Shown here in pieces: positions 1,601 to 32,550 of a DNA stretch of 64,000 bases. The stretch covers positions 4,177,155 to 4,241,154 of the forward strand of contig OZ014422.1 of the NCBI GenBank assembly GCA_963965975.1, in the 5' to 3' direction. How positions within the stretch are numbered: position 1 is the first letter of the stretch; each line of letters starts with the position of its first letter. This DNA comes from Xestospongia bergquistia. Lineage: Eukaryota; Porifera; Demospongiae; Haplosclerida; Petrosiidae. The notes beneath the pieces are model-generated. The model searched no databases. It had not been told where the DNA came from and was given only the letters and a program-made list of their open reading frames with translations. Position numbers and translations under genes: made by a program.

Positions 1601-2581
1601 TTTTTGTAAATTAATGCTGACATCTCATTGTCATTGTATTACTGGTATCTGGCTTGGTTTTGAAGGTTAGGTTTGTGGTGGTCTGGAAGGGTTACATTTT
1701 ATTAACTGGTGTTTGTGAAGTCTACGCTCTTCTTCTCTTTATCCCTAATAAGTGACATGGACTTTTGTACACTAGAATTATTAAGTAATTTAATATACAA
1801 CAGACTCTTGCCAATTTATAATAATTTTTATTGCTCTGTTATAATAAGTATTTTTCATTTTATAGTAGTACTGTTTTCTACTGGAGATGATCAACTAATT
1901 GAGAGTTATAAATTCAATAATTTTAGTGATACCTTCTTTTAGGATAAGAGTAGAATAGGTCTGTTTACTGACTGGTCTATTGGAGATGATTGTCGTACTT
2001 CTAGTAAGTTAATAGAAACACTTATATTAAATAATGTTTTTACTGTTTGTTCTCTTCTATTATAATTGTAATTTATTCTACATCAACATGCGATGATCTG
2101 GATATAGTATAGTCCTATGATATACTATATATGACTAGACTAGAGATGATGTAGTGATGTTCTCTAATAACTACTCTATGTAAGATTGATTTTTTATATA
2201 TCATTAATTCTAACTGCCCATTTTTATTCTCTAGTTGTTTTTATTGTCTAGTTGCAACATGTTCTAGTTGAGTGCTGGGAATGATGACAGCTGTATCATA
2301 ATACTTATTCTATGTTATAAGTACGATACTACTGACCCTTTTGTCACTCTAATATATTTATGATCTAATCTACATTAACTTATGACTACTGTAAGTGGAC
2401 TTATTAAGTAGTATAAGTAGCACAATTTTCTACTAAAGAATTTGTTTTAAGCTTTCGTTATTATCCAGAAAGATCAGAATTACTTTATTACTAGCCTCTA
2501 AAAGTGTACTTCAATTTTTTTTACTAGCAACTAAAAATTTACTACAGTATTTTTTACTGGCATCTAGTAATTTACTTCAGT

Positions 2582-2630
2582 ATGGCATGTAGAATTTTTT
2601 GTGTCCTGTTCATTGGCATCAGGGCTTTTG
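2582..2630 (+). other. Possible signal-peptide-like exon remnant in the 4.2 kb unit
   Basis: An ATG opens 16 codons of hydrophobic, signal-peptide-like sequence (MACRIFCVLFIGIRAF) and is followed at once by a consensus donor GTAAGT (2631). A paralogue at 4042-4090 reads MASRIFCVLFIGIKAF with the same donor, and a third form lies at 18529-18577. All hold the frame and donor despite substitutions. No convincing following exon was found: the nearest acceptor-like sites lead into stops. It could be a decayed first exon of a secreted-protein gene, or chance. Confidence 0.3.
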
Positions 2631-7100: not shown

Positions 7101-8384
7101 TTACTGACTGGTCTATTGGAGATGATTATCCTACTTCTAGTAAGTTAATAGAAACACCTATATTAAATAATGTTTTTACTGTTTATTCTCTTCTATTATA
7201 ATAGTAATTTATTCTACATCAACATGCGATGATCTAGATCTAGTATAGTCCTATGATATACTATATATGACTAGACTGGAGATGATGTAGCGAGTTCTCT
7301 AATAACTACTCTATGTAAGATTGAAAATCAAACTGCCCATTTTTATTCTCTAGTTGTTTTTATTGTCTAGTTGCAACATGTTCTAGTTGAGTGCTGGGAA
7401 TCATGACAGCTGTATGATAATACTTATACTATGTTATAAGTACGATACTACTGACCCTTTTGTCACTCTAATAGGTTTATGATCTATTGTACATTATCTT
7501 ATGACTACTTGTTCTGTAGTGTAATGATATAATGTTGTGATAGTTGTGTGTTGTATAGTAAGAATAATGTTAGAACAGAACAAATTCTGTTACATTTAGT
7601 AGATCTATCAAGAAACTAAAAAGAGATGATGTGATAACAATTGTTAATATACCTACTGTAAGTTGAATTATTAAATAGTACAATGTCTACTAAATGAACC
7701 TCAATGTTCTATAATAGGATAGAAAGGTTAATGTCACTGGTAATGATGATCTTATGTACATTAACTGATGACTAATGTAAGTTATCTGTTATAATAATAT
7801 GGAGATTTCTTTACTAAACATTTATTTTAATAATTTTTAGATGGACTTTAGTCTATTATATAGGCGTATCATTAACTCTATGCATGACTAGAGTGGACTG
7901 GAGGTGATGCAGTGATGTTCTCTAATAATCACTCTATGTAAGATTGATCTTTATATACATTTTGTTATCATGATACTTATAAGTACGATACTACTGACCC
8001 TTTTGTCACTCTAATAGGTCTATGATCTAATCTACATAACATATGACTACTGTAAGTTGACTTATTAAGTAGTACAATTTTCTACTAAAGACTTTGTTTT
8101 AAGCTTTCGTTATTATCCAGAAAGATCAGAATTACTTCATTACTAGCATCTAAAAATTTACTACAGTACTTTTTACTGACATCTAGAAATTTACTTAAGT
8201 ATTTTGTACTGGGATCTAAAAATTTACTTCAGTATGGCATCTAGAATTTTTTGTGTCCTGTTCATTGGCATCAAGGCTTTTGGTAAGTTTTCATTCATGG
8301 TTTGTATCAGCCTGGAGAGTTCAACAGTTAGTGTTTATTGTACACTAGAATTACAAGTAATAATTGTTATTGGTGCTCTGTTGT
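4193..8384. repeat. 4.2 kb unit, copy 2
   Basis: This copy is full length with only scattered substitutions relative to copy 1, for example a private A near 7543. It carries 'ctagaaattt' near 6757 where copies 1 and 3 carry 'ctagtaattt', a state it shares with copy 4. Confidence 0.95.
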
Positions 8385-11300: not shown

Positions 11301-12576
11301 TGGTCTATTGGAGATGATTATCCTACTTCTAGTAAGTTAATAGAAACACCTATATTAAATAATGTTTTTACTGTTTATTCTCTTCTATTATAATAGTAAT
11401 TTATTCTACATCAACATGCGATGATCTAGATCTAGTATAGTCCTATGATATACTATATATGACTAGACTGGAGATGATGTAGCGAGTTCTCTAATAACTA
11501 CTCTATGTAAGATTGAAAATCAAACTGCCCATTTTTATTCTCTAGTTGTTTTTATTGTCTAGTTGCAACATGTTCTAGTTGAGTGCTGGGAATCATGACA
11601 GCTGTATGATAATACTTATACTATGTTATAAGTACGATACTACTGACCCTTTTGTCACTCTAATAGGTTTATGATCTATTGTACATTATCTTATGACTAC
11701 TTGTTCTGTAGTGTAATGATATAATGTTGTGATGGTTGTGTGTTGTATAGTAAGAATAATGTTAGAACAGAACAAATTCTGTTACATTTAGTAGATCTAT
11801 CAAGAAACTAAAAAGAGATGATGTGATAACAATTGTTAATATACCTACTGTAAGTTGAATTATTAAATAGTACAATGTCTACTAAATGAACCTCAATGTT
11901 CTATAATAGGATAGAAAGGTTAATGTCACTGGTAATGATGATCTTATGTACATTAACTGATGACTAATGTAAGTTATCTGTTATAATAATATGGAGATTT
12001 CTTTACTAAACATTTATTTTAATAATTTTTAGATGGACTTTAGTCTATTATATAGGCGTATCATTAACTCTATGCATGACTAGAGTGGACTGGAGGTGAT
12101 GCAGTGATGTTCTCTAATAATCACTCTATGTAAGATTGATCTTTATATACATTTTGTTATCATGATACTTATAAGTACGATACTACTGACCCTTTTGTCA
12201 CTCTAATAGGTCTATGATCTAATCTACATAACATATGACTACTGTAAGTTGACTTATTAAGTAGTACAATTTTCTACTAAAGACTTTGTTTTAAGCTTTC
12301 GTTATTATCCAGAAAGATCAGAATTACTTCATTACTAGCATCTAAAAATTTACTACAGTACTTTTTACTGACATCTAGAAATTTACTTAAGTATTTTGTA
12401 CTGGGATCTAAAAATTTACTTCAGTATGGCATCTAGAATTTTTTGTGTCCTGTTCATTGGCATCAAGGCTTTTGGTAAGTTTTCATTCATGGTTTGTATC
12501 AGCCTGGAGAGTTCAACAGTTAGTGTTTATTGTACACTAGAATTACAAGTAATAATTGTTATTGGTGCTCTGTTGT
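8385..12576. repeat. 4.2 kb unit, copy 3
   Basis: This copy is full length. It shares the 'ctagtaattt' state (about 10949) with copy 1 and the G and T states at its end (about 12512 and 12565) with copy 2, so variants are shuffled between copies as expected under gene conversion or unequal exchange. Confidence 0.95.
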
Positions 12577-15500
12577 AATAGCTCTTTTTCATTTTATACT
12601 TGTTCTGTAGTGTAATGATATAATGTTGTAATGGTTGTGTGTTGTGTAGTAAGAATAATGTTAGAACAAAAATTCTGTTACATTTAGTAGGTCTATCAAT
12701 AAACAATAAGAGATGATCTGATAACAATTGTCAATATACCTACTGTAAGTTGAATTATTAAATAGTACAATGTCTACTAAATGAATCTCAATGTTCTATA
12801 ATAGGATAGAAAGGTTAATGTCACTGGTAATGATGATCTTATGTACATTAACTGATGACTAATGTAAGTTATCTGTTATAATAATATGGAGATTTCTTTA
12901 CTAAACATTTATTTTAATAATTTTTAGATGGACTCTAGTCTATTATAAAGGCGTATTATTAACTCTATGCGTGACTAGAGTGGACTGGAGGTGATGCAGT
13001 GATGTTCTCTAATAATCACTCTATGTAAGATTGATCTTTATATACATTTTGTTAAACTTTTCATTCTGTAGTGATGTTCAAGTTGAGTGTACTGAGATGG
13101 TGGAGATGATGATGGAGACGATGATTGAGATTGTGATGGAAATGATGATGGAGATGGAGATGGTGGTGATGGTGATTGTAATGATTGAGATGGTGATGGA
13201 GATAATGGTTGTATATGAATAGTTACACTATATATAGTACAATTATAAACTGTTTTGGTCTCCTTTAATTGGTTTATCTACTACTAACACTGTGTGGACA
13301 TCAATAATTGTTCATGGGTCTGGAAAAATATTCGACATTGCTGGTTGTGGCTCTTTATCTTGGTTCTTGAGGTTGACAGTCTTTGTGTGTTGAGTATGGT
13401 CAGGGATCAGTTTGTTGGTTGTGTATATGGACATCATAATGTGATTATAGGGTGGTTGTTGAGTCTGGGCTATTAATAGGTGGATTTGGACATGGAAGAA
13501 CTGTTTGTATGTTATTTTGTGAATACTTTCTAATATTGTATCCTCTTCCTTGTCTTGTGGTACCTCACATCTCATTCATCTTTGTCTTTTGTGTATCTAT
13601 ATATAAACTCTACCTGTATAACCTTCTAGGTGTTATTGATGTATAAGGGTGACCCTTTCTCTTGATATTAAACCTGACGTCAGACCTTCCGTATTTATTT
13701 TAATCCCTTTGCGTGTGTCTGTTAGTGTATAATGGTGACCCTTTCTCTTGATATTAAACCTGACGTCAGACCCTTCCATATTTATTTTAGTCCCGTTGTG
13801 TGTGTCTGTTACTGTGTCATAATGTTCTATAACTTACGTCTGCCATATTAAGTCCCTTTGTGTTGTGTAATCCTGAATTATTTAACCCCTTTTGTGCGTC
13901 ATATAATCCTGAATAATTTAACCCCTTCTGTTTTTAATTGTTGCCCATTGAGTGTGTTGTGTATTAATCCCTTGTGTGTGTCGTATAATCTTGAATTACT
14001 TAACCCTCCATTTCATAATTGTTACCATTGTGTTGCATATTTATCCCTTTATGTGTGTTTTATAATCCTGAATAATTTAACCCCTTCTGTTTCGTAATTG
14101 TTAACCATTGAGTGTGTTGCATATTTACCCCTTATGTGTGCTGTTAAGGCTGAATTATTTAACTCCTTTTATAATTTTTTGTAAATTAATGCTGACATCT
14201 CATTGTCATTGTATTACTGGTATCTGGCTTGGTTTTGAAGGTTAGGTTTGTGGTGGTCTGGAAGGGTTACATTTTATTAACTGGTGTTTGTGAAGTCTAC
14301 GCTCTTCTTCTCTTTATCCCTAATAAGTGACATGGACTTTTGTACACTAGAATTATTAAGTAATTTAATATACAACAGACTCTTGCCAATTTATAATAAT
14401 TTTTATTGCTCTGTTATAATAAGTATTTTTCATTTTATAGTAGTACTGTTTTCTACTGGAGATGATCAACTAATTGAGAGTTATAAATTCAATAATTTTA
14501 GTGATACCTTCTTTTAGGATAAGAGTAGAATAGGTCTGTTTACTGACTGGTCTATTGGAGATGATTGTCGTACTTCTAGTAAGTTAATAGAAACACTTAT
14601 ATTAAATAATGTTTTTACTGTTTGTTCTCTTCTATTATAATTGTAATTTATTCTACATCAACATGCGATGATCTGGATATAGTATAGTCCTATGATATAC
14701 TATATATGACTAGACTAGAGATGATGTAGTGATGTTCTCTAATAACTACTCTATGTAAGATTGATTTTTTATATATCATTAATTCTAACTGCCCATTTTT
14801 ATTCTCTAGTTGTTTTTATTGTCTAGTTGCAACATGTTCTAGTTGAGTGCTGGGAATGATGACAGCTGTATCATAATACTTATTCTATGTTATAAGTACG
14901 ATACTACTGACCCTTTTGTCACTCTAATATATTTATGATCTAATCTACATTAACTTATGACTACTGTAAGTGGACTTATTAAGTAGTATAAGTAGCACAA
15001 TTTTCTACTAAAGAATTTGTTTTAAGCTTTCGTTATTATCCAGAAAGATCAGAATTACTTTATTACTAGCCTCTAAAAGTGTACTTCAATTTTTTTTACT
15101 AGCAACTAAAAATTTACTACAGTATTTTTTACTGGCATCTAGAAATTTACTTCAGTATGGCATGTAGAATTTTTTGTGTCCTGTTCATTGGCATCAGGGC
15201 TTTTGGTAAGTTTTCATTCATGGTTTGTATCAGCCTGGAGGGTTTGAAGGTTAGGTTTTATAGCAGATGTCTATGAAATATAAACTCTTTATCCCTAACA
15301 AAGTAATTTTAATATACAACAGACTCTTGTCAATTTATAATTATTATTATTGCTCTGTTATAACAAGTATTTTTCATTTTATAGTAGGACTGCTTTCTAC
15401 TGGAGATGATCAACTAATTGAGAGTTATAAACTCAATAATTTAAATGATACCTTCTTTTAGGATAAGAGTAGAATAGGTCTGTTTACTGACTGGTCTATT

Positions 15501-15872
15501 GGAGATGATTATCCTACTTCTAGTAAGTTAATAGAAACACCTATATTAAATAATGTTTTTACTGTTTATTCTCTTCTATTATAATAGTAATTTATTCTAC
15601 ATCAACATGCGATGATCTAGATCTAGTATAGTCCTATGATATACTATATATGACTAGACTGGAGATGATGTAGCGAGTTCTCTAATAACTACTCTATGTA
15701 AGATTGAAAATCAAACTGCCCATTTTTATTCTCTAGTTGTTTTTATTGTCTAGTTGCAACATGTTCTAGTTGAGTGCTGGGAATCATGACAGCTGTATGA
15801 TAATACTTATACTATGTTATAAGTACGATACTACTGACCCTTTTGTCACTCTAATAGGTTTATGATCTATTG
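12577..15872. repeat. 4.2 kb unit, copy 4, shortened by about 0.9 kb
   Basis: This copy follows the consensus until its downstream 450 bp module and then passes directly into the upstream paralogous module of the next copy, so the step to copy 5 is 3296 bp instead of 4192. It also has a 1 bp deletion near 14144 ('ctgttaagg' for 'ctgtataagg') and a C to T change near 14058. The switch point is described under the hybrid module. Confidence 0.93.
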
Positions 15873-18782
15873 TACATTATCTTATGACTACTTGTTCTGT
15901 AGTGTAATGATATAATGTTGTGATGGTTGTGTGTTGTATAGTAAGAATAATGTTAGAACAGAACAAATTCTGTTACATTTAGTAGATCTATCAAGAAACT
16001 AAAAAGAGATGATGTGATAACAATTGTTAATATACCTACTGTAAGTTGAATTATTAAATAGTACAATGTCTACTAAATGAACCTCAATGTTCTATAATAG
16101 GATAGAAAGGTTAATGTCACTGGTAATGATGATCTTATGTACATTAACTGATGACTAATGTAAGTTATCTGTTATAATAATATGGAGATTTCTTTACTAA
16201 ACATTTATTTTAATAATTTTTAGATGGACTTTAGTCTATTATATAGGCGTATCATTAACTCTATGCGTGACTAGAGTGGACTGGAGGTGATGCAGTGATG
16301 TTCTCTAATAATCACTCTATGTAAGATTGATCTTTATATACATTTTGTTAAACTTTTCATTCTGTAGTGATGTTCAAGTTGAGTGTACTGAGATGGTGGA
16401 GATGATGATGGAGACGATGATTGAGATTGTGATGGAAATGATGATGGAGATGGAGATGGCGGTGATGGTGATTGTGATGATTGAGATGGTGATGGAGATA
16501 ATGGTTGTATATGAATAGTTACACTATATATAGTACAATTATAAACTGTTTTGGTCTCCTTTAATTGGTTTATCTACTACTAACACTGTGTGGACATCAA
16601 TAATTGTTCATGGGTCTGGAAAAATATTCGACATTGCTGGTTGTGGCTCTTTATCTTGGTTCTTGAGGTTGACAGTCTTTGTGTGTTGAGTATGGTCAGG
16701 GATCAGTTTGTTGGTTGTGTATATGGACATCATAATGTGATTATAGGGTGGTTGTTGAGTCTGGGCTATTAATAGGTGGATTTGGACATGGAAGAACTGT
16801 TTGTATGTTATTTTGTGAATACTTTCTAATATTGTATCCTCTTCCTTGTCTTGTGGTACCTCACATCTCATTCATCTTTGTCTTTTGTGTATCTATATAT
16901 AAACTCTACCTGTATAACCTTCTAGGTGTTATTGATGTATAAGGGTGACCCTTTCTCTTGATATTAAACCTGACGTCAGACCTTCCGTATTTATTTTAAT
17001 CCCTTTGCGTGTGTCTGTTAGTGTATAATGGTGACCCTTTCTCTTGATATTAAACCTGACGTCAGACCCTTCCATATTTATTTTAGTCCCGTTGTGTGTG
17101 TCTGTTACTGTGTCATAATGTTCTATAACTTACGTCTGCCATATTAAGTCCCTTTGTGTTGTGTAATCCTGAATTATTTAACCCCTTTTGTGCGTCATAT
17201 AATCCTGAATAATTTAACCCCTTCTGTTTTTAATTGTTGCCCATTGAGTGTGTTGTGTATTAATCCCTTGTGTGTGTCGTATAATCTTGAATTACTTAAC
17301 CCTCCATTTCATAATTGTTACCATTGTGTTGCATATTTATCCCTTTATGTGTGCTTTATAATCCTGAATAATTTAACCCCTTCTGTTTCGTAATTGTTAA
17401 CCATTGAGTGTGTTGCATATTTACCCCTTATGTGTGCTGTATAAGGCTGAATTATTTAACTCCTTTTATAATTTTTTGTAAATTAATGCTGACATCTCAT
17501 TGTCATTGTATTACTGGTATCTGGTTAGGTTTGTGGTTGTCTGGAAGGGTTACATTTTATTAACTGGTGTTTGTGAAGTCTACGCTCTTCTTCTCTTTAT
17601 CCCTAATAAGTGACATGGACTTTTGTACACTAGAATTATTAAGTAATTTAATATACAACAGACCCTTGTCAATTTATAATAATTATTATTGCTCTGTTAT
17701 AATAAGTATTTTTCATTTTATAGTAGTACTGTTTTCTACTGGAGATGACCATCAACTAATTGAGAGTTATAAACTCAACAATTTAAATGATACCTTCTTT
17801 TAGGATAAGAGTAGAATAGGTCTGTTTACTGACTGGTCTATTGGAGATGATTGTCGTACTTCTAGTAAGTTAATAGAAACACTTATATTAAATAAATGTT
17901 TTTACTATTTTTTCTCTTCTATTATAATAGTAATTTATTCTACATCAACATGTGATGATCTGGATATAGTATAGTTCTATGATATACTATATATGACTAG
18001 ACTAGAGATGATGTAGTGAAGTTTTGTAATAACTACTCTATGTAAGATTGAAAATCAAACTGCCTATTTTTATTTTCTAGTTGTTTTTATTCTCTAGTTG
18101 CTTATACTATGTTATAAGTACATTCACTTTTGTCACTCTAATAGGTTTATGATCCAATCTACATTATCTTATGATTACTGTAAGTTGACCTTTTAAATAG
18201 TAGAATTTTCTACTGAATGAACTATTTAATAGGATGGACAGGTTTAATGATCACTGGTAGTGATGATCTGATGTACCAGATGACAAACGTTAAGTATTAC
18301 AAGTGTTTTCCATGCGGATAAAGAGCTGTAAATCTACCAATTCATCTTATCTTTTGAGTTAATCTCTTTAGCCAAAGAATTTGTTTAAAGCTTTCGTTAT
18401 TATCCAGAAAGATCAGAATTACTTTATTACTAGAATTACTGGCATCTAAAAATTTACTACAGTATTTTTACTGGCATGTAGAATTTTACTTCAGTATTTT
18501 TTACTGGCATCTAAAAATTTACTACAGTATGGCATCTAGAATTTTTTGTGTCCTATTCATTGGCATCAGGGCTTTTGGTAAGTTTTCATTAATGGTTTGT
18601 ATCAGCCTGGAGAGTTCAACAGTTAGTGTTTATTGTACACTAGAATTACAAGTAATAATTGTTATTGGTGCTCTGTTGTAATAGCTCTTTTTCATTTTAT
18701 ACTTGTTCTGTAGTGCAATGATATAATGTTGTAATGGTTGTGTGTTGTATAGTAAGAATAATGTTAGAACAAAACAAATTCT
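15873..18782. repeat. 4.2 kb unit, copy 5, diverged and internally deleted edge copy
   Basis: It matches the other copies closely until about 17520, where 'cttggttttgaagg' is missing. Divergence then rises: 'gatgaccatcaac' near 17747, a lost segment after about 18100, and a rearranged stretch at 18200-18480. The last 240 bases (18540-18782) again match the end and start of the unit. Array homology ends at about 18782. Greater divergence of the terminal copy is the usual picture in tandem arrays homogenised from within. Confidence 0.9.
15889..16345. repeat. Hybrid module: crossover between two internal paralogous segments
   Basis: From 15889 to about 16253 this stretch carries the diagnostic variants of the downstream module (as in 3318-3690): 'gttgtgatgg', 'gaacagaaca', 'agatctatcaag', 'ggactttagtc', 'tataggcgtatcatt'. 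From about 16266 ('ctatgcgtgac') onwards it carries those of the upstream module (as in 388-479), followed by the sequence that normally lies downstream of it. The switch lies within a stretch of about 13 identical bases. This is the signature of homologous recombination between direct repeats about 0.9 kb apart. Confidence 0.9.
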
Positions 18783-19883: not shown

Positions 19884-20139
19884 GTAAAGCATGTTTATAG
19901 CTATTATGTCATTGTAGCTCAATCTCTTGTTCATAGATCATGTCTTGCTCTTTCGACAATAGAAGATAATGAAAAATAATTGTTAATATGATAAATGGTG
20001 TCTGTATTGTACTATTTTATTTATAACTATAAATTTTCTCTCATTACTCTGTTTTTAATAATACATAAACCAATTACTTCTAGATATCAGGTGTAACATT
20101 TAAAAGTTACATAACATCATAGATGCTAATAAAATATTC
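19884..20139. other. Tail-to-tail spacer between the two pseudogenes
   Basis: A donor-like GTAAAG (19884) follows the last reductase exon, but no C-terminal exon was recognised after it. The rest is AT-rich and featureless. It would hold the 3' ends of both converging genes. No clear polyadenylation hexamer was assigned. Confidence 0.5.
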
Positions 20140-20812
20140 TGTGAATACTGCACAACATATTTATACAAATTACGTCTTTATTATAATAGCAGGCAACTAT
20201 ACTAATTAAACATCCAGTCATTAATACTATCAAAAGTATGCAAACAAAACCAAAAACAGCACTCGATGCTATCACTATAAAATCAACAGATAACAAAATG
20301 ATACGGTTATTAAGCAATCCAACCTTGTGTTTCATTTTGAACAGAGAGTATAAAATGGAGATATAGGTGTAACAAGTCCACAATACTCAACTAAAGATCT
20401 TCAGTCAGGTTGCTTAATTGTCTATACAATAATACTAATATGTGAGTTTAGTTAGTATCACAGTGATATATAGGGATAATGACATAATAATAGAAACATT
20501 ATAGACTTACTAGTTGACTACAAAAAATAATTATAAAAAAGATAAACCTAGTGCATACTTTTGTATTTCATCTAAGGAACAAAGATTATAACAATCAGAA
20601 TGTGAAGTAATTAATGAAAATTATCATTCCATGTTTCATTGAACAGAGAAATTTCACATAATAGTGACTATAATAATACTCCATGAAATGATAAAAGCAT
20701 GCTAAATGTTTACATACGCATTGTTATAGTACAATTCAATGACAAATGCTGCAGTGTAGGATGGTTGAATACCATCAAATGTACTTAAAAATGCTGATAC
20801 TGTTGTATCATG

Positions 20813-20837
20813 CTGAAAACAATGTCAGATTAGTTAC
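20813..20837 (-). other. 25 bp intron between the acid phosphatase YSA and HDTT exons
   Basis: On the - strand the sequence runs ...TCTGCT, then GTAACTAATC...TTTTCAG, then CATGATACA. Removing these 25 bases joins LYSA to HDTT exactly as in the family, and without removal the frame breaks. The insert has a GTAACT donor, a branch-like CTAAT and a TTTTCAG acceptor. It is among the shortest spliceosomal-type introns one would expect in an animal. Confidence 0.75.
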
Positions 20838-21390
20838 AGCAGAATACAAGGCCAATTTTAGATCTCTCACACTGTCACTGTTAATACCTTTTATTTTCAT
20901 ATCAGCCAATACTTTATCAGTCCATAAACCTACGACAACAGTCACATCATATAAATTACACTCCAATCAAAATAGTTATTACCTCCCATTATTTGTTTTT
21001 TGGTGCAGGTGTCAGAGAATAAACCTAATGAAAAGTCAGTATAGGCTTAAGAGACATTAACAAATCTACTGAGAACCAAGGTGGCATTGTCAGATTATAA
21101 ATATACTAAAAAACAAAGTATCTATATAATTACAATTGCAATGAGTTTAACATTCACCTCTATAAATAAGGCATCTCTAATACTCCAGGCATTCAAAGTG
21201 TCAATCTTTTTCCCAGTGTACTATCCAAGCTCTTCATACAAATGCTAAATAAATCTAATCACTTTAATTGTCAATAAATGTGAGGGTTTACTTGATGTTG
21301 TTGCTCCATTTCTTTGTATTTTGTAGTGTTTTTATCATTATCTCGTAATTTTGTATACTCAGGACAATATGTAGAGTATGCCTTTAATAA

Positions 21391-22334
21391 CTGCAATAAA
21401 ATAACTTAGTTGTCACCAAAAAAATAATACAACGATACAGAAAAATGCATGGAATACAGAAATGGCACTTTGTAGACATGTTGTAAGAGCTATGAATATT
21501 CTATTTAATGTTTCATTAATTAGATGCAAGAACTTTCACGAATGCTTGGCTATGTGTGAGGGCTGTCACTATGGAATTTATAACAGGGCAGTCTTATATA
21601 CCACATACTTGTCCTTTCTGAGAAGTTGTTTGTTGAAGTAAATGAGCTGTCAATTCCATAGTATTAGTAATCAGATTATCATATATTGTTAATACATTTC
21701 AATGCAGTATATAATGCCCAATGCAATCTATAATACCTAGTGACAATGATTTGGTTTAAAACAAGCAATCAATTTTATCAGTAATGCATACAGTATTTCA
21801 CTATGAAATCAGTATCTTCTAAAACAGTTTATAGGATGATTTCTTTAGATTATAATCTTGTCTTACAGTCTATAACTAATTTTTTATTGTCAATAGAAAA
21901 CATTAAATTAACCTTAAACCAACCTTGACTCAGTAATGCATTAATATATTCATCAAAGTGGACTTAGTAGGGGTTGATGTCATTTGGAGGAGGCTTAAAA
22001 TTAGTTATCATAATGGAAACTTTGGACACATCACATTTATTTTAATAAATTTGCCAATTCTAAATATAAAGGTTTCAAGACATTAGCTTTGGTTTATGGT
22101 ATGAGACTTTTTATTCAGAAATATACTTCCCATATGATTTGTTTATGAAAATTAACTTGTTAATTGTTATAAAAACATTAATTCTAAATTCATATTTTTT
22201 TACATCCCACATCATTTTCCAATCTGAAAGGAAGGCAATTGGTATTAATTGCATTATGTGGAACATAAAGAGGATGCTTACACCAAATACTGAATATAGA
22301 TTTAATATCCACCCAACAGAAAAGTAAACTACAC
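21391..22334 (-). other. 944 bp intron of the acid phosphatase, far longer than its neighbours
   Basis: Neighbouring introns are 25-53 bp; this one lies between the PIPVHTV and CPEY exons. It holds an 11 bp inverted pair (21568-21578 and 21652-21662) and, on the - strand at about 21920-21985, a short exon-like open stretch with one TAG (IN..LLSQGWF). That stretch does not align to the phosphatase. The length difference suggests a later insertion, but clear element ends and a target duplication were not found. Confidence 0.55.
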
Positions 22335-22817
22335 CTTATCATCTTCTTTTAGTACAGTATGGACAGGAATAGGCTACCAGTATAAATCAGTCTTAAATTT
22401 CTACAATAGAAATTACTTATTATGGATGTTAAAATAAAATTGTATACTTGTGATTTATCAGGTGGGTACAATCCAGCTAGCAGACTCTCTGTACTCATTA
22501 ACGTTCTATCTAAATCTGTGCTCCGGATATATACCTTAATGTATATTTTTATGCATGAAAAAATCCCTCATAAACTAAATTCACCTGGTTTCTGGATTAA
22601 TTGTTATACATGTAACCAAATTTAATGTATTTCGACTTCAATATAAGTCTAAGATTATAAGCTTCTTTCATTTCAAGCTATGAAATATGAGAATAGACAG
22701 ACTGCAATGTATTCAACTTACAGTTGTTAGTTGTCCAAATCTTTGAGACCATGCATCTTCCTGTTATGGGTCATTAGGATAAGTTTGAACAGGGTTTCGA
22801 TCACCATGTCGAAATAC

Positions 22818-22985
22818 CTAATTTGAGACAAAGACTTTTGAAATGAAATTCATAAACATTGCATAAAAATTAATTGACATGTATACTACTTAACACTCTT
22901 CTCTCAAAGGTAGTCATGAGACTAAGAATAACCTGGGCTGGAGATATATTTATTATTGACAACATAATCAAAGATCCCTTAATGA
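22818..22985. other. Spacer between the acid phosphatase remnant and the retroelement
   Basis: About 170 bases of AT-rich DNA. It should hold the first (signal peptide) exon of the phosphatase or its intron, but no convincing match was read. No LTR is seen here, so the retroelement is truncated at its 3' side. Confidence 0.45.
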
Positions 22986-22989
22986 GACA

Positions 22990-23560
22990 TCTTACATGTT
23001 CATACCCATACTGCTTCTGATACTGTTAAAAACTCAAGTGAGATGTCCCAAGTGCTCACTCCAGCTGTCACTGAAAATCACTACATCATCCAAGTAGGCT
23101 GCTGCAAATTATTCCATACCATGTATATTGTAAAACCTTATCCATTAATCATTGAAATATTGCCGGAGCACCTTGAAGACCAAATAGCCTAACATTGAAC
23201 TGAAATAGCCCGAAGGACGTCACAAATACTGTCTTGGGTCAGCCATCCTTGGCAACTGGAACCTGCCAATAACCACGAGTAAGGTCCAATGCTGAGATGA
23301 ATTTGGCTTTGCCAACTTGGGTGATCAGCTCGTCCACTCTGGGCATTGGATATGCATCACCTTACAAGAGTCTGCTCAAACACTGGTAATCAACACACAG
23401 CTGTAATGATCTGTCCTTCTTCTTTAACAGTGCCACTGGAGCACTCCAAGCAATTTCTGGTGGAGCATTTGATCCAACTCTTGTTTCACAGTGTCTATAT
23501 AGGAGTGTGGTAGGCAATAAGCCGGCAGTCGTACTGGATGAGCATCTCTAGTGAGAACAT
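22990..23560 (-). pseudogene. Reverse transcriptase domain, truncated (Ty3/gypsy type)
   Basis: It begins with the gypsy-type entry DAHPVRLPAY near 23530 and continues through WSAPVALLKKKD (about 23440), VDYQ, the palm segment FISALDLTRGYWQVP (about 23310-23270), GLQGAPAIFQ and the catalytic YLDDVV (about 23080-23096). Stops and shifts interrupt it after LSRLL, PVAKDG and AIFQ. The domain ends soon after the YLDD block with no RNase H. Its N-terminus is in one open frame (23861-23424) with the integrase C-terminus, which fixes the domain order integrase then reverse transcriptase. Confidence 0.88.
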
Positions 23561-23759
23561 AGTGTTCCACCAAATCTGTACAATCAGGAGTATTACTAAT
23601 CATATCACTAAATCCCTTTAACAACTGCATCAGGTTCTCCTGCTGGAATTGGATGAGATTATTTCCAAAAATTGGTTGACCTTTTGACTGTGTTTTACCA
23701 CTCTCTGTCCAGGTAGGTTTGTCCTGCTCCCTGTCCAATACTTCTGAACTATATAGAGC

Positions 23760-24836
23760 ACTGCTTGATGGGACATACCATTCACATAACATGTTGACAT
23801 GGAACAATTGTTTCCTTTTCCTGTGATCACGCATGTCCACAATATAATTGACTTCTCCCATGCGTTAGTTAAACACATGGGAGAAGGCAATTACCTCACA
23901 TGGCCCTTGCCATTGAGCAAGCAGTTTACTACTGGATGTGTGAAGAAGCACTAGCACTTGCTGTCCTGGCTTAAAGTCACAAGTACAGGCATTGCAGTTA
24001 TACCATTTACGTTGTCTCTCCTGGGCATTAGATAAATTACTCTTCACCAGCTCTGTCATTTTTGCTAGCTTGTCAGAAATTGAAAGGATATGAGATACCA
24101 CACTGTGTTCTCCAGGCCCTCCAGCTTCCCAGGTATTCTTCAGCATATCCAAAGGACCATTCACAGCTCTCCCATACAAAAGTTCAAAAGGAGAGAACCC
24201 TGTGAATGCCTGAGGGACCTCCTGATAAGCAAACAGGAGATTGGGCAACATTTTGTCACAGTCCTTGCCTTCACTTATTGCCGCTTTCTTTAACATGGAC
24301 TTTAGAGTTTGATTAAAACAATGCACGAGTCTGTCCGCTTGAGGATGGTAGGGGCTTGTTTGTAACTGATGGATGTAAAGCATTTTGTATAATTCTGATA
24401 GGAGTAGATGTAAAGTTATCCTCTTGGTCTGCGAGAATCTCATATGGGATGCCCACATTAGCAAAAATGAGGACTAGTTACTCAACAATGTTTTCAGTAT
24501 CAATTGAGTGTAAGGCAACAGCCTCAGGATACCGAGTTGCATTGTCACACAAGACGGGAATGTATCATTTTCCTGACCGACTGCAAGAGAGAGGTCCGAC
24601 AATATCCATAGCAACTCTCTTAAATGGAGTATCAATAATAGGGAGGGGAATGAGTGGTGATGGTTGCATATGATGTTGAGCAACCTTCTGGCATGATCCA
24701 CAGGTCCAGCAGTACTCCACCACATCTCTGTATATAGTTGGCCAATAGAACTGCTGTAAGATACATTGAGTCATCTTGTCTCAGCCCAAATGACCAGCAA
24801 GGGCAATGGAATGTGCCAGACTTATAACTCTGTCAC
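23760..24836 (-). pseudogene. Integrase (H2C2 zinc finger, DDE core, C-terminal module), inactive
   Basis: The H2C2 finger starts with the two His of AHSIALAGH (about 24830-24800, followed by an in-frame TGA), then FYWPTIYRDV and CWTCGSCQK. The first core Asp is in AMDIVGPL (about 24604); the second is in ADQEDNF (about 24435) after a frameshift and a TAA. The expected third acidic residue, after TSPYHPQ, is replaced by His in LVHCFNQTL (about 24300). The segment LLFAYQEVPQAFTGFSPFEL and the C-terminal block ending HVNMLCEW (about 23800) follow. Loss of the catalytic Glu and the stops mean no activity. The C-terminal end runs in frame into the reverse transcriptase. Confidence 0.88.
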
Positions 24837-24839
24837 GAC

Positions 24840-25165
24840 ATTCCTTTGGAAGCACGAGTTGTTCTACAGCTATGTCTTCACCATCTCTACCAGATGGCAT
24901 CCAATATCTTTACAGTAAACCATATTTCCAGTAGAATCGTATTCCACTACCAGTTGTACGATCTGCATAAGCTTTATTATACTGACTGATTCCAATGATG
25001 GGTCGGTCTTCTATAGCGTCTTCAATACTTCTGAGTCAATCCTTCGAATATGGTTGTCACCTGATCCTCCACTTCTGTTGTACTGTTTCTTGTTTGCTCT
25101 CTTCATGTTTCTGCTTAATCTTCTCTTCTCTCGAGATTTCTCAAACAAATCATCATCTATCATCG
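24840..25165 (-). pseudogene. Linker between protease and integrase, degraded
   Basis: Highly charged, stop-rich remnant on the - strand: Glu/Arg/Lys-rich codons after the protease, then a stretch like the region that precedes the H2C2 finger in gypsy elements. No domain is assigned. Open frames on the + strand here are antisense shadows. Confidence 0.5.
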
Positions 25166-25729
25166 TCATCTAATCTGTCTCTTCACTCTTGTCTTCTTCC
25201 TCCTTATTATGATCATCGCCCTTTGCTTCGGTTCTCTGCTCCTCTTCATTAATGGGTATGATGTCACTCCGCATTTCTCCTCCAATTGTTTCTCCTCAAC
25301 CTTTTGTTCCTTGTGTTTCCGTACTGCAGCTATTGTCATTATTCCCATGGCCTTCTCTGGTTCCCCTACTCCAGAGTTCTGTTTAGTTAATAGCTCGGGT
25401 AGTTGGGACACATCTGTAGCCAACAGTACTCCCACAGGTAAGCGATCTGAGACAGCAGCCTCAACTTCTATTGGTTTTCCCTCGACTTCCATGTGCACCT
25501 TTGCCAAGTGACACAACACTGTGGCTCCATGTGCACAACACACCATAGTAGCTTTTCCTTCAAGCAACACCTCTTCAGGTACTAGCTTCCGATGTATTAG
25601 AGTCCTTGAACAACCTGTGTCTAATAGAATATTTTTCACATATGTTCCCTCTACTGTCCCAGATCTCATTATTCCAGACTCCTGATGAGTGTTGTTCTGC
25701 CCACAGAACATGACATTATATGAGGGCAA
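25166..25729 (-). pseudogene. Retroelement aspartic protease region (187-codon open frame)
   Basis: The active-site motif LLDTGCS is at residues 35-41 (Asp at about 25619-25621), followed by a second beta-hairpin region and the typical LPVGVLLATDV (near residue 98). The protease spans roughly residues 25-115. The remainder is a Lys/Glu-rich tail leading to the integrase. Retropepsins of this kind act as dimers and cut the Gag-Pol polyprotein. The frame is open here, but the gag and pol parts on both sides are broken. Confidence 0.85.
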
Positions 25730-26050
25730 TGTGAAGAGTAGTGTCCTTACTCATCACAGTTGTAGCATTCAATATCCTTCTTTCTTCTTTTTCTCCTTCT
25801 ACTACCTGAGCCTCCGTTTCCAGTACTAGTCATTGCCAATATGCCAGCTGTTTTAGTAGTAGGACAATCTTTCACCTTACGTCCAGGTTACCACATCCAT
25901 GACACAGTCCACATACTCCTCCAGATGTGCCATAGATTGCTTTCCATTTGATGAGCCCAGTCGGGGTCCTCTAGCCAGGACGTAATCATCAGCATACTCT
26001 CCAGCCTCCTTGCTTGTCTTAGGCTTACGCTCCTTCACCCATATACGTAC
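25730..26050 (-). pseudogene. Gag C-terminal part: SCAN-like capsid segment and zinc knuckle
   Basis: The segment VRIWVKERKPKTSKEAGEYA (about 26055-25995) with following DDYVLARG resembles the capsid C-terminal region from which vertebrate SCAN domains are thought to derive. Downstream are a degenerate Cys/His stretch (about 25890-25860), a basic RRRKRRKK run and a CCHC knuckle, C-Y-N-C...G-H-Y-S-S-H-C (about 25765-25725). The knuckle carries an in-frame TAA at 25747-25749. The knuckle binds RNA in functional relatives. Confidence 0.8.
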
Positions 26051-26256
26051 ATAAGGAGAGTTGAAAATGTCTTTTGTGACCTCCATCGAAAATCAGCTTG
26101 AGCTTGAGCGTTTGCTTCCTCGTCAAGTTCTTCTGTACCATCTACAAAACCCCATAGTCCCTTAGCCAACAGCATATGTCACATCTGGAACTTCAATGTA
26201 GTCCAGTTCGTGGTATCTAACTTGTTAATGGACCATTTATCATCTACAGCTGTCAT
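26050..26256 (-). pseudogene. Copia-type gag N-terminus
   Basis: An ATG at 26254-26256 opens MTAVDDKW, then KLDTTNWTTLKFQM, a TGA (26179-26181), HMLLAKGLWGFVDGT and ADFRWRSQKTFSTLLM. The order 'kl.g.NW.twkfqm..ll..k.lwg.vdg' is the hallmark of Ty1/copia gag (UBN2/DUF4219 type), not of gypsy gag. It passes within about 15 bases, near 26045-26062, into the gypsy-type gag segment in a different frame. Confidence 0.8.
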
Positions 26257-26349
26257 TTTGACTCTTGCTAATTCGTTGTCCAAAAAAAGATTATATACAG
26301 ATCAGCACAACTACAAACCTGGGTCTAGTGTGATGAATTTAGTTGGAGA

Positions 26350-26363
26350 CTGGGCTCATAACC
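26350..26363 (-). promoter_or_regulatory. Primer binding site, half initiator-tRNA-Met type
   Basis: On the - strand GGTTATGAGCCCAG follows the LTR end without a gap. It differs by one base from the complement of the anticodon-arm region of initiator tRNA-Met, the primer used by copia-type elements through a cleaved tRNA half. This ties the LTR to the Ty1/copia class. Confidence 0.8.
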
Positions 26364-26702
26364 TGTTGAAAGTTTTTGTATAGTTCTATGGTCAGACTGC
26401 AGCTGAGTACATAGCTCTGTTCTCGTCACAACTAAGTTTAAGTAGAACTTGTATTTAAATGAAATCAATACGGTTAGACTAACAATGTGAACAAAAATCA
26501 GGTATTTATAACAGAAATCAAACAAAGAACAAAGATTAAACTAAATGGACAAAGATAAGGACTATCACAGAAATCATGAATGAGAAAGTTTACACACACT
26601 TAATTAACACTTAAATGATTCAAAGAAAATAGACTTACAGATAGACTAATTTACACACAAATGAATACAGATAAACAACCTAACCAATTACCTCTTCCAA
26701 CA
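26364..26702 (-). mobile_element. LTR, 339 bp, copia-like
   Basis: On the - strand it begins TGTTGGAAGAGG and ends CTTTCAACA, giving matching short inverted ends (TGTTGGAA/TTTCAACA) and the standard TG...CA termini. The primer site follows directly. The outer flank at 26703 falls inside a dispersed repeat (compare 29255 and 30556). No second LTR is in the window, so its age cannot be judged by LTR comparison. Confidence 0.78.
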
Positions 26703-26890
26703 GGTCAATCATTATTACCATGAGACATGACTTGTTACATAAATAAGACATTGTTATATATCATAAGTGGGCATTAATTAGAATACGTTTCATATTCTAA
26801 TTAATTTGTGGTTTAACAGAATTTTGTGTATAATATGTTTAAAGAATGAGAGAGTATTTTCTTCTGTCAAGGTACTACAAGAATAAGAGA
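26703..26890. repeat. Dispersed repeat R, copy 1 (partial)
   Basis: The stretch 'tcaatcattatta...acataaataagacat...gggcattaattagaat' matches 29257-29338 and 30558-30640. The following 'tttgtggtttaac...gagagtattttcttctgtc' matches 30660-30725. It is cut on its left by the LTR and runs on its right into the GA-rich block, just as copy 3 does. Confidence 0.8.
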
Positions 26891-27152
26891 AGCGAAAAAC
26901 TCTGAAAAGAAATAGATTGAGAGATACCGAGTGTGAGAGAGAGACTCCTAATGTGAGGGAGAAGAGACAGAGAGGAAGAAAGACTAAGAGACATGAGTGT
27001 GTGAGTGAGAAAAAGAGAGAGAGAAAAGGAATTAAAGAAACTGGGAGTGTGGTTGTGTGAGAAAGTGGAAAAGATGGAGGTAGCCTCTGACAGTGATGCT
27101 CTGTGAGATAGAGAGAGAGAGAGACGAGAATGAAACGGAGAGACTCTGAATC

Positions 27153-27189
<37 letters not shown>

Positions 27190-27785
27190 GACAGACAGAC
27201 AAAGAGAAAATAAGAGAGAAAGAAAGAGAAATAGAGACTGATAGAGAGAGAGAGGGAGATTCTGAAAGAAAGAGAGAGAGAATAAACTGAGGAAGGAGAC
27301 ACAGAGAAAGACTGACAGACTCTGAGAGTGTGTTTATGTGTTTGTGTGTAACAGGCACTCTAACAGTGATAAACTATGAGAGAGAGAGAGAGAGAGAGTA
27401 AGAGAAAGAAAGAGATATAGACAGAGACAAAGAGACAGAGAAAGAGAGAGAGGGAAAGACTCTGACAGTCTATGTGCATGGGTGAGAGAAAGGGACAGAG
27501 AGTACAGAATGAAAAGAAGTGAATAAGAAAGAGACATACAAAATAATAAGTAGAGAGAGAAATTTTTAAAATGAGAGAATGAGAGACATAGAGACTCAGA
27601 GAGTAATATAGAGAGATAATCCTATTGCGAGGGGCGAGAGAGACAAGGAGAAAGACTGACAGAATCTAAGAATGTAAGTATGTAACTGAAAAAAGAGACT
27701 CTGACAGTGAAGTACTATGAAAGAGAGAGAGATACTCTGAAAGATACCGGGAGAGTGAGGGAGGACTTCTTTTGTGATGGAGGAT

Positions 27786-27817
<32 letters not shown>

Positions 27818-28955
27818 TGAATGAGAGACTCTGTGAATGTTTCTGTGACAGAGAAAGTGAAAGTGAGAGAAAGAGAAAGAGTGTGAGTGTGCTAGAGAAA
27901 GGCTTTATGTGTGATACCATATGAGAGAGAGACACACACATAGTAACACATACAGACAGATTGAGACTCTAAGTGTGCGTGTGTTTGCGTGTGTGTGTGT
28001 GTGCGTGTGCATGTGTGTGTGTGTGTGAGGGAGGGAGAGAGACACAGTCAGATAGAGTATAATAGGAGAGAGATACAGAGACATTGATAAGGAATGTGAG
28101 ACTCTAAGAGAGAGAGTTCTAAAGTAAGGGAAGGAGAGACAGATAGACTGAGAGAATCTGTGTTTGTGAGTATGAGAGAGAGAGACTTCTAAAGTGAGAG
28201 AGTGAGAGAGAGAAAAAGTGAAAGAATTTGATAGTGTATCTCAGTGTTTAATAGAGAAAGAAGGGACTCTGAGAGTGATCGACTATGAGATAGAGAGAGA
28301 GAGATAGGGACTCAGAGAGTGAGAGAGAGAGAAACTGTAAGGGTGGCTGTCTATGAAACTCTAACAGAGATTCTCTGATAAAGATATCAAGAGGCTATGA
28401 AAGTGCATGTGAGGAAGGAGGGACTGAGAGATACTTTGACTGAGAGAAAGAGATTTTGAGAGAGAGAGATAGAGGAACTCTTAAGATGTTTGTATTTGTA
28501 TGTGAGAGGATAACATGCATGTAGGGAAACAGAGAGACTGTGTGAGTGGAAGAACGTAAAAGAGAGACACTCCAAGAGATAGACCGTGAGAGAGAGATTC
28601 CTAAATAAGAGAAACATAGGCACAGAGAGATAGCCAAGCAGAAACTCTGAGAAAATCTACGTGTGAGATAGGGAGAAAGAGAAATAGAGATTGATCAGGA
28701 GAGACATTGTGAGAGTGAGAAAAACAGAGAGAGAGAGAGAGAGAGTCTCAGAGTGAGAGAGAAAGATAAGGACAGAAAGAGAGACTGAAAGACTTTGCGT
28801 GAGTAAAACTCAACGAGAAAAACACTCTAAGAGAGACACAGAGATAAAAGAGAGGGACTGACTCTGAGATAAAGAGAGGGAGAGTAATAAAAGATAAAGA
28901 GTGATAGAGATATAGAGACAGAGAGAGAGATGAATAGAGTCTCTCATAGCAAGTT
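26890..28955. repeat. Purine-rich GA block 1, about 2.1 kb
   Basis: The + strand is largely G and A (GAGAGA runs) with recurring 'gactctgagagtg' and 'actatgagagag' words and short (GT)n runs, for example near 27150 and 27970-28027. Frames on the - strand that read as Ser-Leu repeats come from the CT-rich complement and are not genes. Long polypurine tracts with mirror symmetry can form triplex (H-)DNA. Confidence 0.92.
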
Positions 28956-29340
28956 CATCAGCCGGGTAGTTTGAGGTCCATAAAAAATAACCTTCATATT
29001 TCATTCAAAAAACAATGTAACCTGTGAAACTAATAGATCAAGTCAAAGGCCAACCAAAAATGCTTCATCGAAACATATTACACGTTATATCACACCAATG
29101 ACTCTGGTACATTATATTGGAATATGTTTTAGTAAATCACACATAGGAATGGATTGATTTGCAAGTTCTTGAGTTGTTCATTTGTTGTCTTCTTACTAGT
29201 AGGTTTGCTGATAATCAGTATGATAACTACTACTAATACACCACTAATAGACTAGTTCAATCATTATTATCACATGATATAATTTGTCATATAAAAAAAC
29301 TATATCATACATCATGACTATGGGCATTAATTAGAATAGG
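28956..29340. repeat. Dispersed repeat R, copy 2
   Basis: It includes 'gaaacatattacac', 'ctctggtacatta', 'ggattgatttgcaagttctt', 'gttgtcttcttactagtag', 'actactactaatacac' and 'gggcattaattagaat', in the same order as copy 3 at 30300-30640. It is followed directly by the piggyBac fragment instead of the usual purine-rich transition. Confidence 0.85.
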
Positions 29341-29780
29341 AGACAGAAGGATCTTTTTTCCATAATTAAATTTTGTTCAAGAAGTTCTTTCGTTACAGCT
29401 AACCAAAAGTCTAAGTGAGTCATTGGTTTCTCAGCAGCTATATTATGTAGTATCCATGCATTCACTAAACTGAGATCTACTAGGTGAAAGAACACTCGCT
29501 TCCACCATTTCACTGTCCTATTTTAGTACTACAATAATCTGTGAATGCTACATAATTGGCTAACCTATGTGAATAGCCATAAGACTGCAACATTGGATCA
29601 CTTAGATCGACCACACCCATGTATTGATTGTAGTCCTCTATCATCACAGGTTTAGTGATTTTTACAACACCAGTGTGAGCTCTTCTTGTTCTACATCATC
29701 ACAGGTTTAGTGATCTCTTCAAAACCAGTGTGAGCTCTTCTTGTTCTCCTCCGTTTGACTAACATATCATCATTGTTAAA
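29331..29780 (-). pseudogene. piggyBac-type transposase fragment
   Basis: On the - strand the segment reads ITKPVMIEDYNQYMGVVDLSD (Asn/Met-Gly-Val-Asp box of DDE_Tnp_1_7 transposases, near the last catalytic Asp), then after a frameshift KWWKRVFFHLVDLSLVNAWI and HLDFWLAVTKELLE (29513-29331). This is the C-terminal part of a piggyBac-family DNA transposase, related to PGBD4-like proteins. A 55 bp tandem duplication (starts at 29641 and 29696) and the frameshift at about 29520 break it. The N-terminal two thirds and terminal repeats are absent. Confidence 0.8.
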
Positions 29781-29784
29781 TATG

Positions 29785-30295
29785 ATAGAGAGAGTGAGAC
29801 ACACTGACGGAGAGAGAAAGACTGACAGAGAGAGACTCTTAAAGTGAAGGAAAGAAAGATAGATAGAAAGATGGACTCACAGTCACTCTGTGTGTCTCTC
29901 TCATGCATGCACAGGTACACACACTCTGAGACTCTCTCTCTCTAGACTGAGAGACAACAAGAAATAACAAATAGATAACCTGAGATACATAGATTAAGGG
30001 AGAGTGAGATAGAGACAGATATAGAGTCCTAAAGTTAGGGAGACAAAACAGTGAGAGGAAGAGAATAAGAGAGACCGGGAATCAAGGAGAGAGAGAGATA
30101 AAGTGAGAGTAAGAGGTCATAACAGTCAGAGAAAAAAAGAGAGACTCAGAAAAAAAAGACACTTAGAAAGAGAGGGAGAGACTGTCAGACTCCAAGAGTG
30201 TGTTTGTGTGAGACAGAGACTCCCCCAGAGCGAGAGACTACCAGAGACACGCACTCCTAGAGAGAAAAGATTAAGCAATCCTGAGAGTATGTGTG
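29785..30295. repeat. Purine-rich GA block 2
   Basis: It has the same composition and words as block 1 ('gagagagactct', 'agagtgtgtttg'). A short pyrimidine-rich inversion of sense occurs at 29890-29945 ('tctctctctctag'), so the purine strand switches locally. Confidence 0.88.
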
Positions 30296-30770
30296 TGTTT
30301 ATGTCAAAGGTCAACTAAAAATTCTACATTGAAACATATTACACATTATCACAGCAATGAGCCTGGTACATTACATCAAAATATGTTTAGGAAATAACAC
30401 ATAGTAGTAATATATGTGATAAGAAACACAGTATAGAATGTCTCTTACACTGGATTGATTTGTAAGTTCTTGAGTTGTTTATTTGTTGTCTTCTTACAAG
30501 TAGATTTCACGATAATAAGTACAATAACTACTACTAATACACTACTAATAGACTAGCTCAATCATTATTATCATGTGACATAATTTGTTACATAAATAAG
30601 ACATCATTATAGATCACGAATGTGGGCATTGATTAGAATGTCATGCAGGTGGGTCTCATTTGTGATTTAATGGAAATTGGTGCAAAATCAGTAAAAAGGA
30701 TGAGAGAATAGTTTCTTCTGTTCAGGCTATGAGAAGAATTAGAGTGAGAGAGAAAAACAGATAGAGACTC
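30296..30770. repeat. Dispersed repeat R, copy 3 (longest)
   Basis: It runs from 'gtcaaaggtcaactaaaaat' through 'gaaacatattacacattat', 'ggattgatttgtaagttctt', 'actactactaatacac', 'tcaatcattattatcatg' and 'gggcattgattagaat' to 'gaatagtttcttctgttc' and then into GA-rich sequence. It is flanked by purine blocks on both sides. No open frame or terminal inverted repeat was recognised. Confidence 0.85.
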
Positions 30771-31790
30771 TGAGAGTGAGAGAGAGATAAAGAGAGAGAG
30801 AGAGAGACAGTGAAAGTTAGAGACTATAAGAGAGTGATAGTAACATTGAGATAGATACATAGCAAATCTCAAGGAGAGACAGAGAGAGACAGACACAGAG
30901 AGATGGATGGAGGGAGGGAGAGAGAGAGTCTGAGAGTGAAAGACTATGAGACAGAGAGACTCTGAGAGAGAGAGAGGAAGATTGAGAGATCCTGAGAGTG
31001 TTTGTGTGTACCCAGAGAGAGAGAGACAGAGAGAGAGAGATCCTTTTAGACTTAAAAAGAGCGAGACAGAGAGAGATAGATGTTCAGAGTAAGAAAGAGA
31101 GAGTGACACTCTGAGAGAGGAAAAGAGAGACTTTGAGTAAGAGAGAGAGAGACTGTGAGAGTGAGATACTATGAGAGAGATTCTGATAGATAAATAGAGA
31201 GAAACAGAGGAGGAAAACAGAGACTCAGAGAAATATAGAGAAAGAGAGACCCTGAAAGAGAGAAAAAGGAATACATAGAGTCTAAAAAAAGAGAAAGTTG
31301 GAGATTCTGGGAAGTGAGAGAGAGACCCTTAGAAAAAGAGAAGGACAGAGATTTTGTGAGACAGAGAAAGAGAGACAGAGAGGGTCGGTGAAAAAGAGAC
31401 TGAGAGAGAGAGAGAGAAAGAGAGAGGCTATGAGAGAGAGAAAAACACTCAGAGAAACAGAGAGAGACACTACTATATAGATAAGACTTTGAGAGAGCAA
31501 AAGATAGAGCATGAGTGTGAGACTTTGAGAGAGAGGGAGAGCCTCAGATCAGTAAGATATATAGAGAAATAGAACAAAAATGAAAGAGAGCAAGGCTATG
31601 AGAAGTGAGAGACTTCAAAACAGAGAGAGAGAGACGCCTCAAAGAGAGAAAGAAATAGAGAAAGAGAGACAAAGAAAGAGAAACAAAGAGATAGAGAGAG
31701 AGAGAGACAGACAGACAGATAGACACAGAGACAGAGAGACAATATGAGAGACAGAGACAGAAAATCTCTGGGTGCACGTTTATCAGCTAT
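30771..31790. repeat. Purine-rich GA block 3, about 1.0 kb
   Basis: Almost uninterrupted G/A on the + strand with periodic 'gagactctgagagtgag' and 'actatgagagag' motifs. Ser/Leu-rich frames on the complement are composition artefacts. Confidence 0.9.
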
Positions 31791-31930
31791 CTCAGTTTGA
31801 GTCTCTTGCACTGGATTGATTTTCAAGTTCTTGTGTTGTTTATTTGTTGTCTTCTTACTAGTAGATTTGTTCATAACAATTAATTAGAAATGAGGTAGAG
31901 GGTGTGGCTTATGGTACAATAGAAGTTCAC
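31791..31930. repeat. Dispersed repeat R, copy 4 (short fragment)
   Basis: The stretch 'ctggattgattttcaagttc ... gttgtcttcttactagtaga' matches copies 2 and 3. It ends early, running into 'aacaattaattagaaatgag'. Spacing of this landmark (about 29151, 30451, 31811) is near 1.3-1.36 kb, so R plus GA block behaves as a loose tandem unit. Confidence 0.78.
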
Positions 31931-32070
31931 GCATTACGAGAGAGGGTGACTATAAGAGAGATACTCCTAGAGAGACTCCTAAACTGAGGAAGAGAAAACA
32001 TTTAAGAGACTTTAAGAAAGTGTGTAAGTGTCAGAGAGACTCTAAGAGTGAGACACTATGAAAGAGTGAA

Positions 32071-32114
<44 letters not shown>

Positions 32115-32395
32115 TTTATATATATAGAAAGAGAGTCTGTAAGACTCCGAAAGTGTAAATGTGTGGGTGGGCGTTAGAGAGAGAGAGACACTTAGAATGA
32201 GAAACTATGATAGAGAAAGAGGTAAAGAGAGACACAGAGACTCTAAGAGAGTGTGTGTGTGTGTGTGAGAGAGAGACAGACAGCTCTGTGAGTGAAACAC
32301 AATGAGAGAGAGAGAATAGACTCTAAGAGAGTGTGAGACAGAGAGAGATAGAGAAAGAGAAATAAAGAGAGATAGATAGAGAGAGAGAGAGAAAC
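31931..32395. repeat. Purine-rich GA block 4 with an (AT)n tract
   Basis: GA-rich as above. A dinucleotide AT run of about 55 bp lies at 32072-32126, and (GT)n at about 32251-32268. The purine bias stops at about 32393. Confidence 0.88.
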
Positions 32396-32550
32396 CAATA
32401 TACTTCAGTAGTCTAACTATTGTCAATATTAAAACAATGTGACACATACAGCTGATCAATGTGCCTCCTCCTATTTACGCAGTCTTCCTCAATACTATAA
32501 GATATGATGTAATTAATAAAAGGGTGCAGTCTCACAACATAGTGGTTGCA
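32396..32550. other. Unique spacer between GA block 4 and the 143 bp satellite
   Basis: About 155 bases of ordinary AT-rich sequence with no match to the flanking repeats and no coding signal. The first satellite monomer begins at about 32551 ('aagttaataactttagagcg'). Confidence 0.6.

Follow-up and report, generated by a model that had tools for sequence, protein, structure and literature searches.

A joint between a copia left end and a Gmr1-like Ty3/gypsy fragment in the sponge Xestospongia bergquistia, very probably spread as duplicated DNA

In a 64-kb stretch of Xestospongia bergquistia DNA (the window), the left end of a Ty1/copia element is joined to part of a Gmr1-like Ty3/gypsy element, and the evidence very strongly favors a single accidental fusion of dead elements that was later amplified by segmental and tandem duplication in repeat-rich DNA. 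No sign of retrotransposition of the composite was seen. A first-pass annotation of this DNA had described a composite retroelement and had raised two explanations for it, an accidental fusion in heterochromatin and a mobile lineage that had captured a copia 5' end. The parts and the joint are present as described, but they do not amount to an element, there being no 3' LTR, a truncated reverse transcriptase (RT), no RNase H match and broken reading frames in the window copy. Of the two explanations, the accidental fusion is supported by the common flanks and single target site of the copies, whereas the mobile lineage is contradicted by those shared flanks, that one target site and the lack of a far-side LTR.

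All features of the composite lie on the minus strand of the window. Its copia-derived part begins with a single LTR of 337 bp at 26366–26702, which has the TG...CA form previously noted (TGTTG...CAACA) and occurs once in the 64 kb, with no second copy and no 3' LTR in the window. Directly adjoining the LTR at 26352–26365 is the primer site GGTTATGAGCCCAG, whose 14 bases are perfectly complementary to the anticodon region of a tRNA-Met(CAT) encoded in the same genome, in agreement with the half-tRNA type of priming that had been proposed. The copia gag N-terminus (26060–26256) starts from an ATG at 26256 and is interrupted by an in-frame TGA at 26181–26179, which is also present in the complete copia element at locus L024. 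Its identification as copia-type gag was borne out by a match to Pfam Retrotran_gag_2 that falls below the curated cut-off (E 0.00049), together with the DNA identity of the window to L024, which is 93.6% over 645 bp with the LTR counted in. The LTR, primer site and gag start (the left ~640 bp) are all that the window retains from copia, and the left copy of the 5-bp target duplication survives beside them at 26703–26707, reading TGACC in the window and TGAGC on both sides of L024 and of two solo LTRs (L027 and L028). The LTR ends, the 5-bp target duplication, the primer on the inside of tRNA-Met and the copia gag start all resemble Ty1/copia elements with half-tRNA priming, a mode that passages of PMC5371799 describe for Drosophila copia; unlike such elements, the window has neither the copia pol nor a 3' LTR.

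The right part begins within a few bases of the copia gag, as had been reported, with the C-terminal part of a SCAN-like Gmr1-type gag at 25943–26054, identified by Pfam (E 0.0094, below the cut-off), DNA comparison and a tblastn match to Gmr1-like gag (8e-14). Compared with the Gmr1-like gag frame at locus L029, the window lacks ~240 residues from the N-terminus. There follow a Gmr1-like zinc knuckle (25776–25720, by tblastn) and aspartic protease (25711–25268), which together span 25268–25776, then a Gmr1-like integrase split between two frames at 23586–25160 and a truncated RT region at 23010–23828, the last two assigned by both Pfam and tblastn. Homology to Gmr1 ends within the RT at 23010, and tblastn gave no match to RNase H in the 64-kb window. 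The order protease, integrase and then RT agrees with the first-pass annotation and derives mainly from tblastn with L031 and L032, since among ten window pieces compared with Pfam the integrase zinc-binding domain was the only one to pass a curated cut-off. The protease, RVT_1 and Integrase_p58_C fell below theirs, one 202-residue integrase piece had no Pfam match, and the remaining domains of the window were assigned from its DNA identity to L024 and by tblastn, for which pieces of L029, L031 and L032 served as queries. With a Ty3/gypsy-type RT and an integrase that lies upstream of it both in the window and in L031, the right part would belong to the Gmr1 clade as judged from domain order. 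The integrase-first order of Gmr1 is already known, according to passages of PMC8220671 and PMC2774666, and it is in this respect that the window and L031 are like Gmr1-like Ty3/gypsy elements. The window copy is unlike them in having no LTRs, gag N-terminus, RT end or RNase H.

The two parts meet at 26055–26059, where 5 bp are attributable to neither parent, copia homology reaching 26060 and Gmr1 homology starting from 26054. A pattern spanning the joint and allowing up to 3 mismatches was found in 37 places in the genome and its reversed-pattern control in none, which argues that the junction is not a chance match. These places included the following: 27 on C9, of which 24 lie inside 3.657–3.946 Mb, 5 on C12, 3 on C7 and one each on C5 and C13. 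A DNA search, in which, as in all of our genome DNA searches, only the best 40 candidates were scored (here out of 102), gave 37 matches that span the joint, 2 with the copia side only and 1 with the Gmr1 side only. Gmr1-like gag upstream of the point at which the composite is cut is carried by L029 and by C6:5577744, and the cut point is the same in 29 of 29 composites among the matches listed. It had been foreseen that a genome search with the junction would return either many independent copies or a single occurrence; the outcome lies between the two, as the copies are many but have common flanks and one target site. Microhomology as the origin of the joint finds no support either way in the 5 bp that come from neither parent. 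Nesting of a Gmr1-like element within copia finds no support either, since neither the window nor the fetched composites have copia beyond the Gmr1 part and the joint lies inside the Gmr1 gag, not at an LTR.

The flanks of the copies carry the case for duplication. Upstream of the LTR, at 26703–28391, lies a GA-rich repeat together with ~80 bp of another repeat, and in blast comparisons with the fetched loci this DNA was common to other junction copies. The upstream flank was shared by 36 of the 37 junction copies (C9:3736219 was left out of the count), with a flank match within 1 kb for 33 of the 37 joints. Consistent with this, it was present in each of the loci L009–L023; in L011 and L014 flank and LTR fell within a single local alignment with the window, and L023 has the flank without the LTR, which it has lost. 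Directly ahead of 19 distinct LTR edges in the fetched loci, 16 of which were composite, the ~20 bp were the same apart from point differences. The 83 bp past the LTR edge were found in all 40 places listed (the best 40 of 110 candidates), a result to be read with the fact that the query itself contained the flank and so favors flank-bearing places. An empty copy of this second repeat, which is the copia target, was located by blast at 29150–29375 in the window, and another copy of it was noted by eye near 30560.

On the other side, the DNA at 20000–23009, which none of the Gmr1-like proteins used matched, is common to 11 of the 12 other fetched non-array copies. In these 11 the match continues, with indels, to 20000 or 20002, ~3 kb beyond where Gmr1 homology ends, and the exception is L023, where it ends at 23904. 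In the C9 cluster copies L020–L022 the downstream match ends at 23277 or 22868. Homology thus extends past both ends of the joined pieces, as is characteristic of segmental or tandem duplication, and ends earlier in L023 and L020–L022; the duplicated blocks vary in extent, and a single uniform block fails to describe every copy. Neither the window nor the fetched composite loci showed an LTR bounding the composite on its far side or a pair of same-orientation LTRs enclosing it; only L020, L021 and L022 had a second LTR, which there starts a neighboring array unit with its own upstream flank. Nor were there independent insertion sites with their own target duplications, the flank being shared by 36 of 37 copies and the site being the same at 16 composite LTR edges. 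The common flanks show that the joined block was copied as DNA among C5, C7, C9, C12 and C13, and in addition as a dense cluster on C9. Four of the junction copies on C12 (L010–L013) have a ~1 kb insert at the same point, equivalent to 24475 in the window, which serves as a marker of that group of copies.

Full-length relatives of each half, whose separate existence had been put forward as a check on the nature of the composite, were indeed found, each having LTRs and a target duplication of its own: L024 and L025 for copia and L031 and L032 for the Gmr1-like part. L024 is the same insertion in full-length form: a 4.57-kb copia element at the target site of the composite, with TGAGC on both sides, two TG...CA LTRs that are 88.9% identical, copia gag, and copia-type RT and integrase. 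Pfam recognized the copia pol domains RVT_2, SH3_retrovirus and gag_pre-integrs in it, with no match for the last piece. The solo LTRs L027 and L028 occupy that same site, four more places on C12 have the LTR without the joint, and L025 is a copia at a different site with an AATCA duplication. Neither the window nor any fetched composite locus contained copia sequence past the joint, and a genome search with this sequence gave no composite among 59 matches (best 40 of 51 candidates scored). Trees of the copia part give L024 no firm position outside the composites: it lies outside them in IQ-TREE (support 28/32) and is nested among them, with weak support, in FastTree. For the Gmr1-like part, the LTRs of L031 measure ~287 bp and have 99.7% identity in a 290-bp alignment; this locus has a GTAAT duplication and a single frame of 1455 residues with SCAN, CCHC, protease and integrase and then RT and RNase H, and L032 has LTRs that are 96.1% identical and an ATAAT duplication. 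Both loci lie in tandem repeats containing such letters, and their duplications therefore carry less weight than duplications in unique sequence. Their primer site is of the TTTGGTGGC type, unlike that of the window. The family to which L031 belongs is represented on C1, C2 and C6 by five places of equal score, with frames of 1011–1470 residues, and is probably young given the 99.7% LTR identity in the one that was fetched. L026, on C14, has the Gmr1 fragment and the downstream block (shared from 20749) without copia. A Gmr1-like RNase H with the end of an RT was also seen there (L026:1176–1885), on the strand of the gag fragment and ~3 kb upstream of it, which implies either a rearrangement of the C14 block itself or the presence of two pieces in it. 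Blocks similar to the DNA upstream of the L026 gag were returned by a genome search on C10 and elsewhere.

Taken with the fusion reading, these loci suggest an order of events. A Ty1/copia element inserted once in the GA-rich repeat, leaving the TGAGC target duplication that is still seen. Later the LTR, primer site and gag start at its left end were joined to a block in which a truncated fragment of a Gmr1-like Ty3/gypsy element lay. The joint can be read directly, and we infer that illegitimate recombination or repair was its cause. A one-time chimeric cDNA, made by a template switch between copia and Gmr1-like RNAs, integrated once and thereafter duplicated as DNA, would account for a sharp joint inside both gag genes, and switches of this kind between retroelement RNAs are generally known to occur. 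We nevertheless consider this very unlikely because a new cDNA would be expected at a new site, and the composite instead sits at the target site of the complete copia L024 and the solo LTRs L027 and L028, an objection that holds unless the match of sites came by later conversion. The Gmr1 side, moreover, runs into a flank that has no Gmr1 matches and that is also found in L026.

The coding state of the composite bears on whether it could ever have moved as a hybrid. The frames of the window copy are broken, and a stop closes the copia frame no more than 8 codons past the junction in 17 of 17 distinct copies (21 rows, with one duplicate, one shortened row, L024 and L025 left aside; copies were read in the window register, with single-copy small indels uncounted). 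Variable sites were distributed evenly over codon positions 1, 2 and 3 in the integrase (38, 38 and 43; p 0.81) and the protease (40, 40 and 40; p 1.0), as counted over up to 15 copies in columns with at least 8 letters, and the commonest letters of the composites differed from L029 at 17, 8 and 19 sites, respectively (p 0.10). Counting-method dN/dS against the window copy was 0.33–0.77 in 12 of 13 composite comparisons and 1.41 in one, and against L029 it was 0.36–0.60. By themselves these ratios would hint at a degree of constraint; the counting method takes no account of transition bias, however, and the codon-position counts among the composites give no support. As such, although dN/dS points the other way, the stops in 17 of 17 copies and the even codon-position variation are not those of an open, constrained gag-pol: the composite encodes no joined Gag and drifts without visible constraint. 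A mobile hybrid family, in which the copia LTR, primer site and gag start drove a Gmr1-like pol and the composite retrotransposed, is for these reasons extremely improbable. A junction common to many copies and a well-kept LTR and primer site are what such a family would show, but its copies would not be expected to have common flanks, a single target site, a far side that has no LTR in the window and fetched loci, a truncated RT, a copia frame closed close to the junction and even codon-position variation. That the junction is an assembly misjoin of two repeats is scarcely conceivable even in a region so rich in satellite and repeats, as the joint occurs in 37 places on five contigs and the fetched copies have point differences and copy-specific indels, and a misjoin is not expected to recur and diverge.

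The DNA around the composite is itself highly repetitive. Positions 1–16350 of the window hold a 4.19-kb unit in tandem, in nearly four copies of 99.9% identity followed by a diverged partial copy, and no closed stop-to-stop frame of at least 150 residues was found there. At 26850–32400, copies of the copia-target repeat are interspersed in a long GA-rich tract of low complexity, and a 143-bp satellite array of ~31 kb occupies 32560–64000. The consensus of this satellite switches strand near 57112, 59578 and 63160, which suggests inversions within the array. The junction places on C5, C7, C9, C12 and C13 sit towards the middles of their contigs, and these positions, together with the 143-bp satellite in the window, make a pericentromeric setting probable. 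Regions of high element density in Drosophila, mostly pericentromeric, contain duplicated nests of element pieces, as passages of PMC1794594 describe, and the blocks studied here are like them in that pieces of several families are spread by tandem and segmental duplication, with extra insertions in some copies. They differ from the Drosophila nests in belonging to another genome, in lying on at least five chromosomes or contigs and in repeating one copia/gypsy joint.

We speculate, with little expectation that it is so, that the retained copia LTR may drive transcription over the block and that the transcripts may act at the centromere or in silencing (e.g., as small-RNA precursors), which would have favored amplification of this unit into the dense C9 cluster. 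The joint is an ordinary outcome in such repeat-rich DNA and does not represent a new class of mobile element. It provides a worked example of how one rearrangement copied as DNA can mimic a hybrid family, being recurrent and having kept its LTR and primer site. In addition, one copia insertion persists in this genome in three states, full-length, solo LTR and fused, which aids in rebuilding the order of events.
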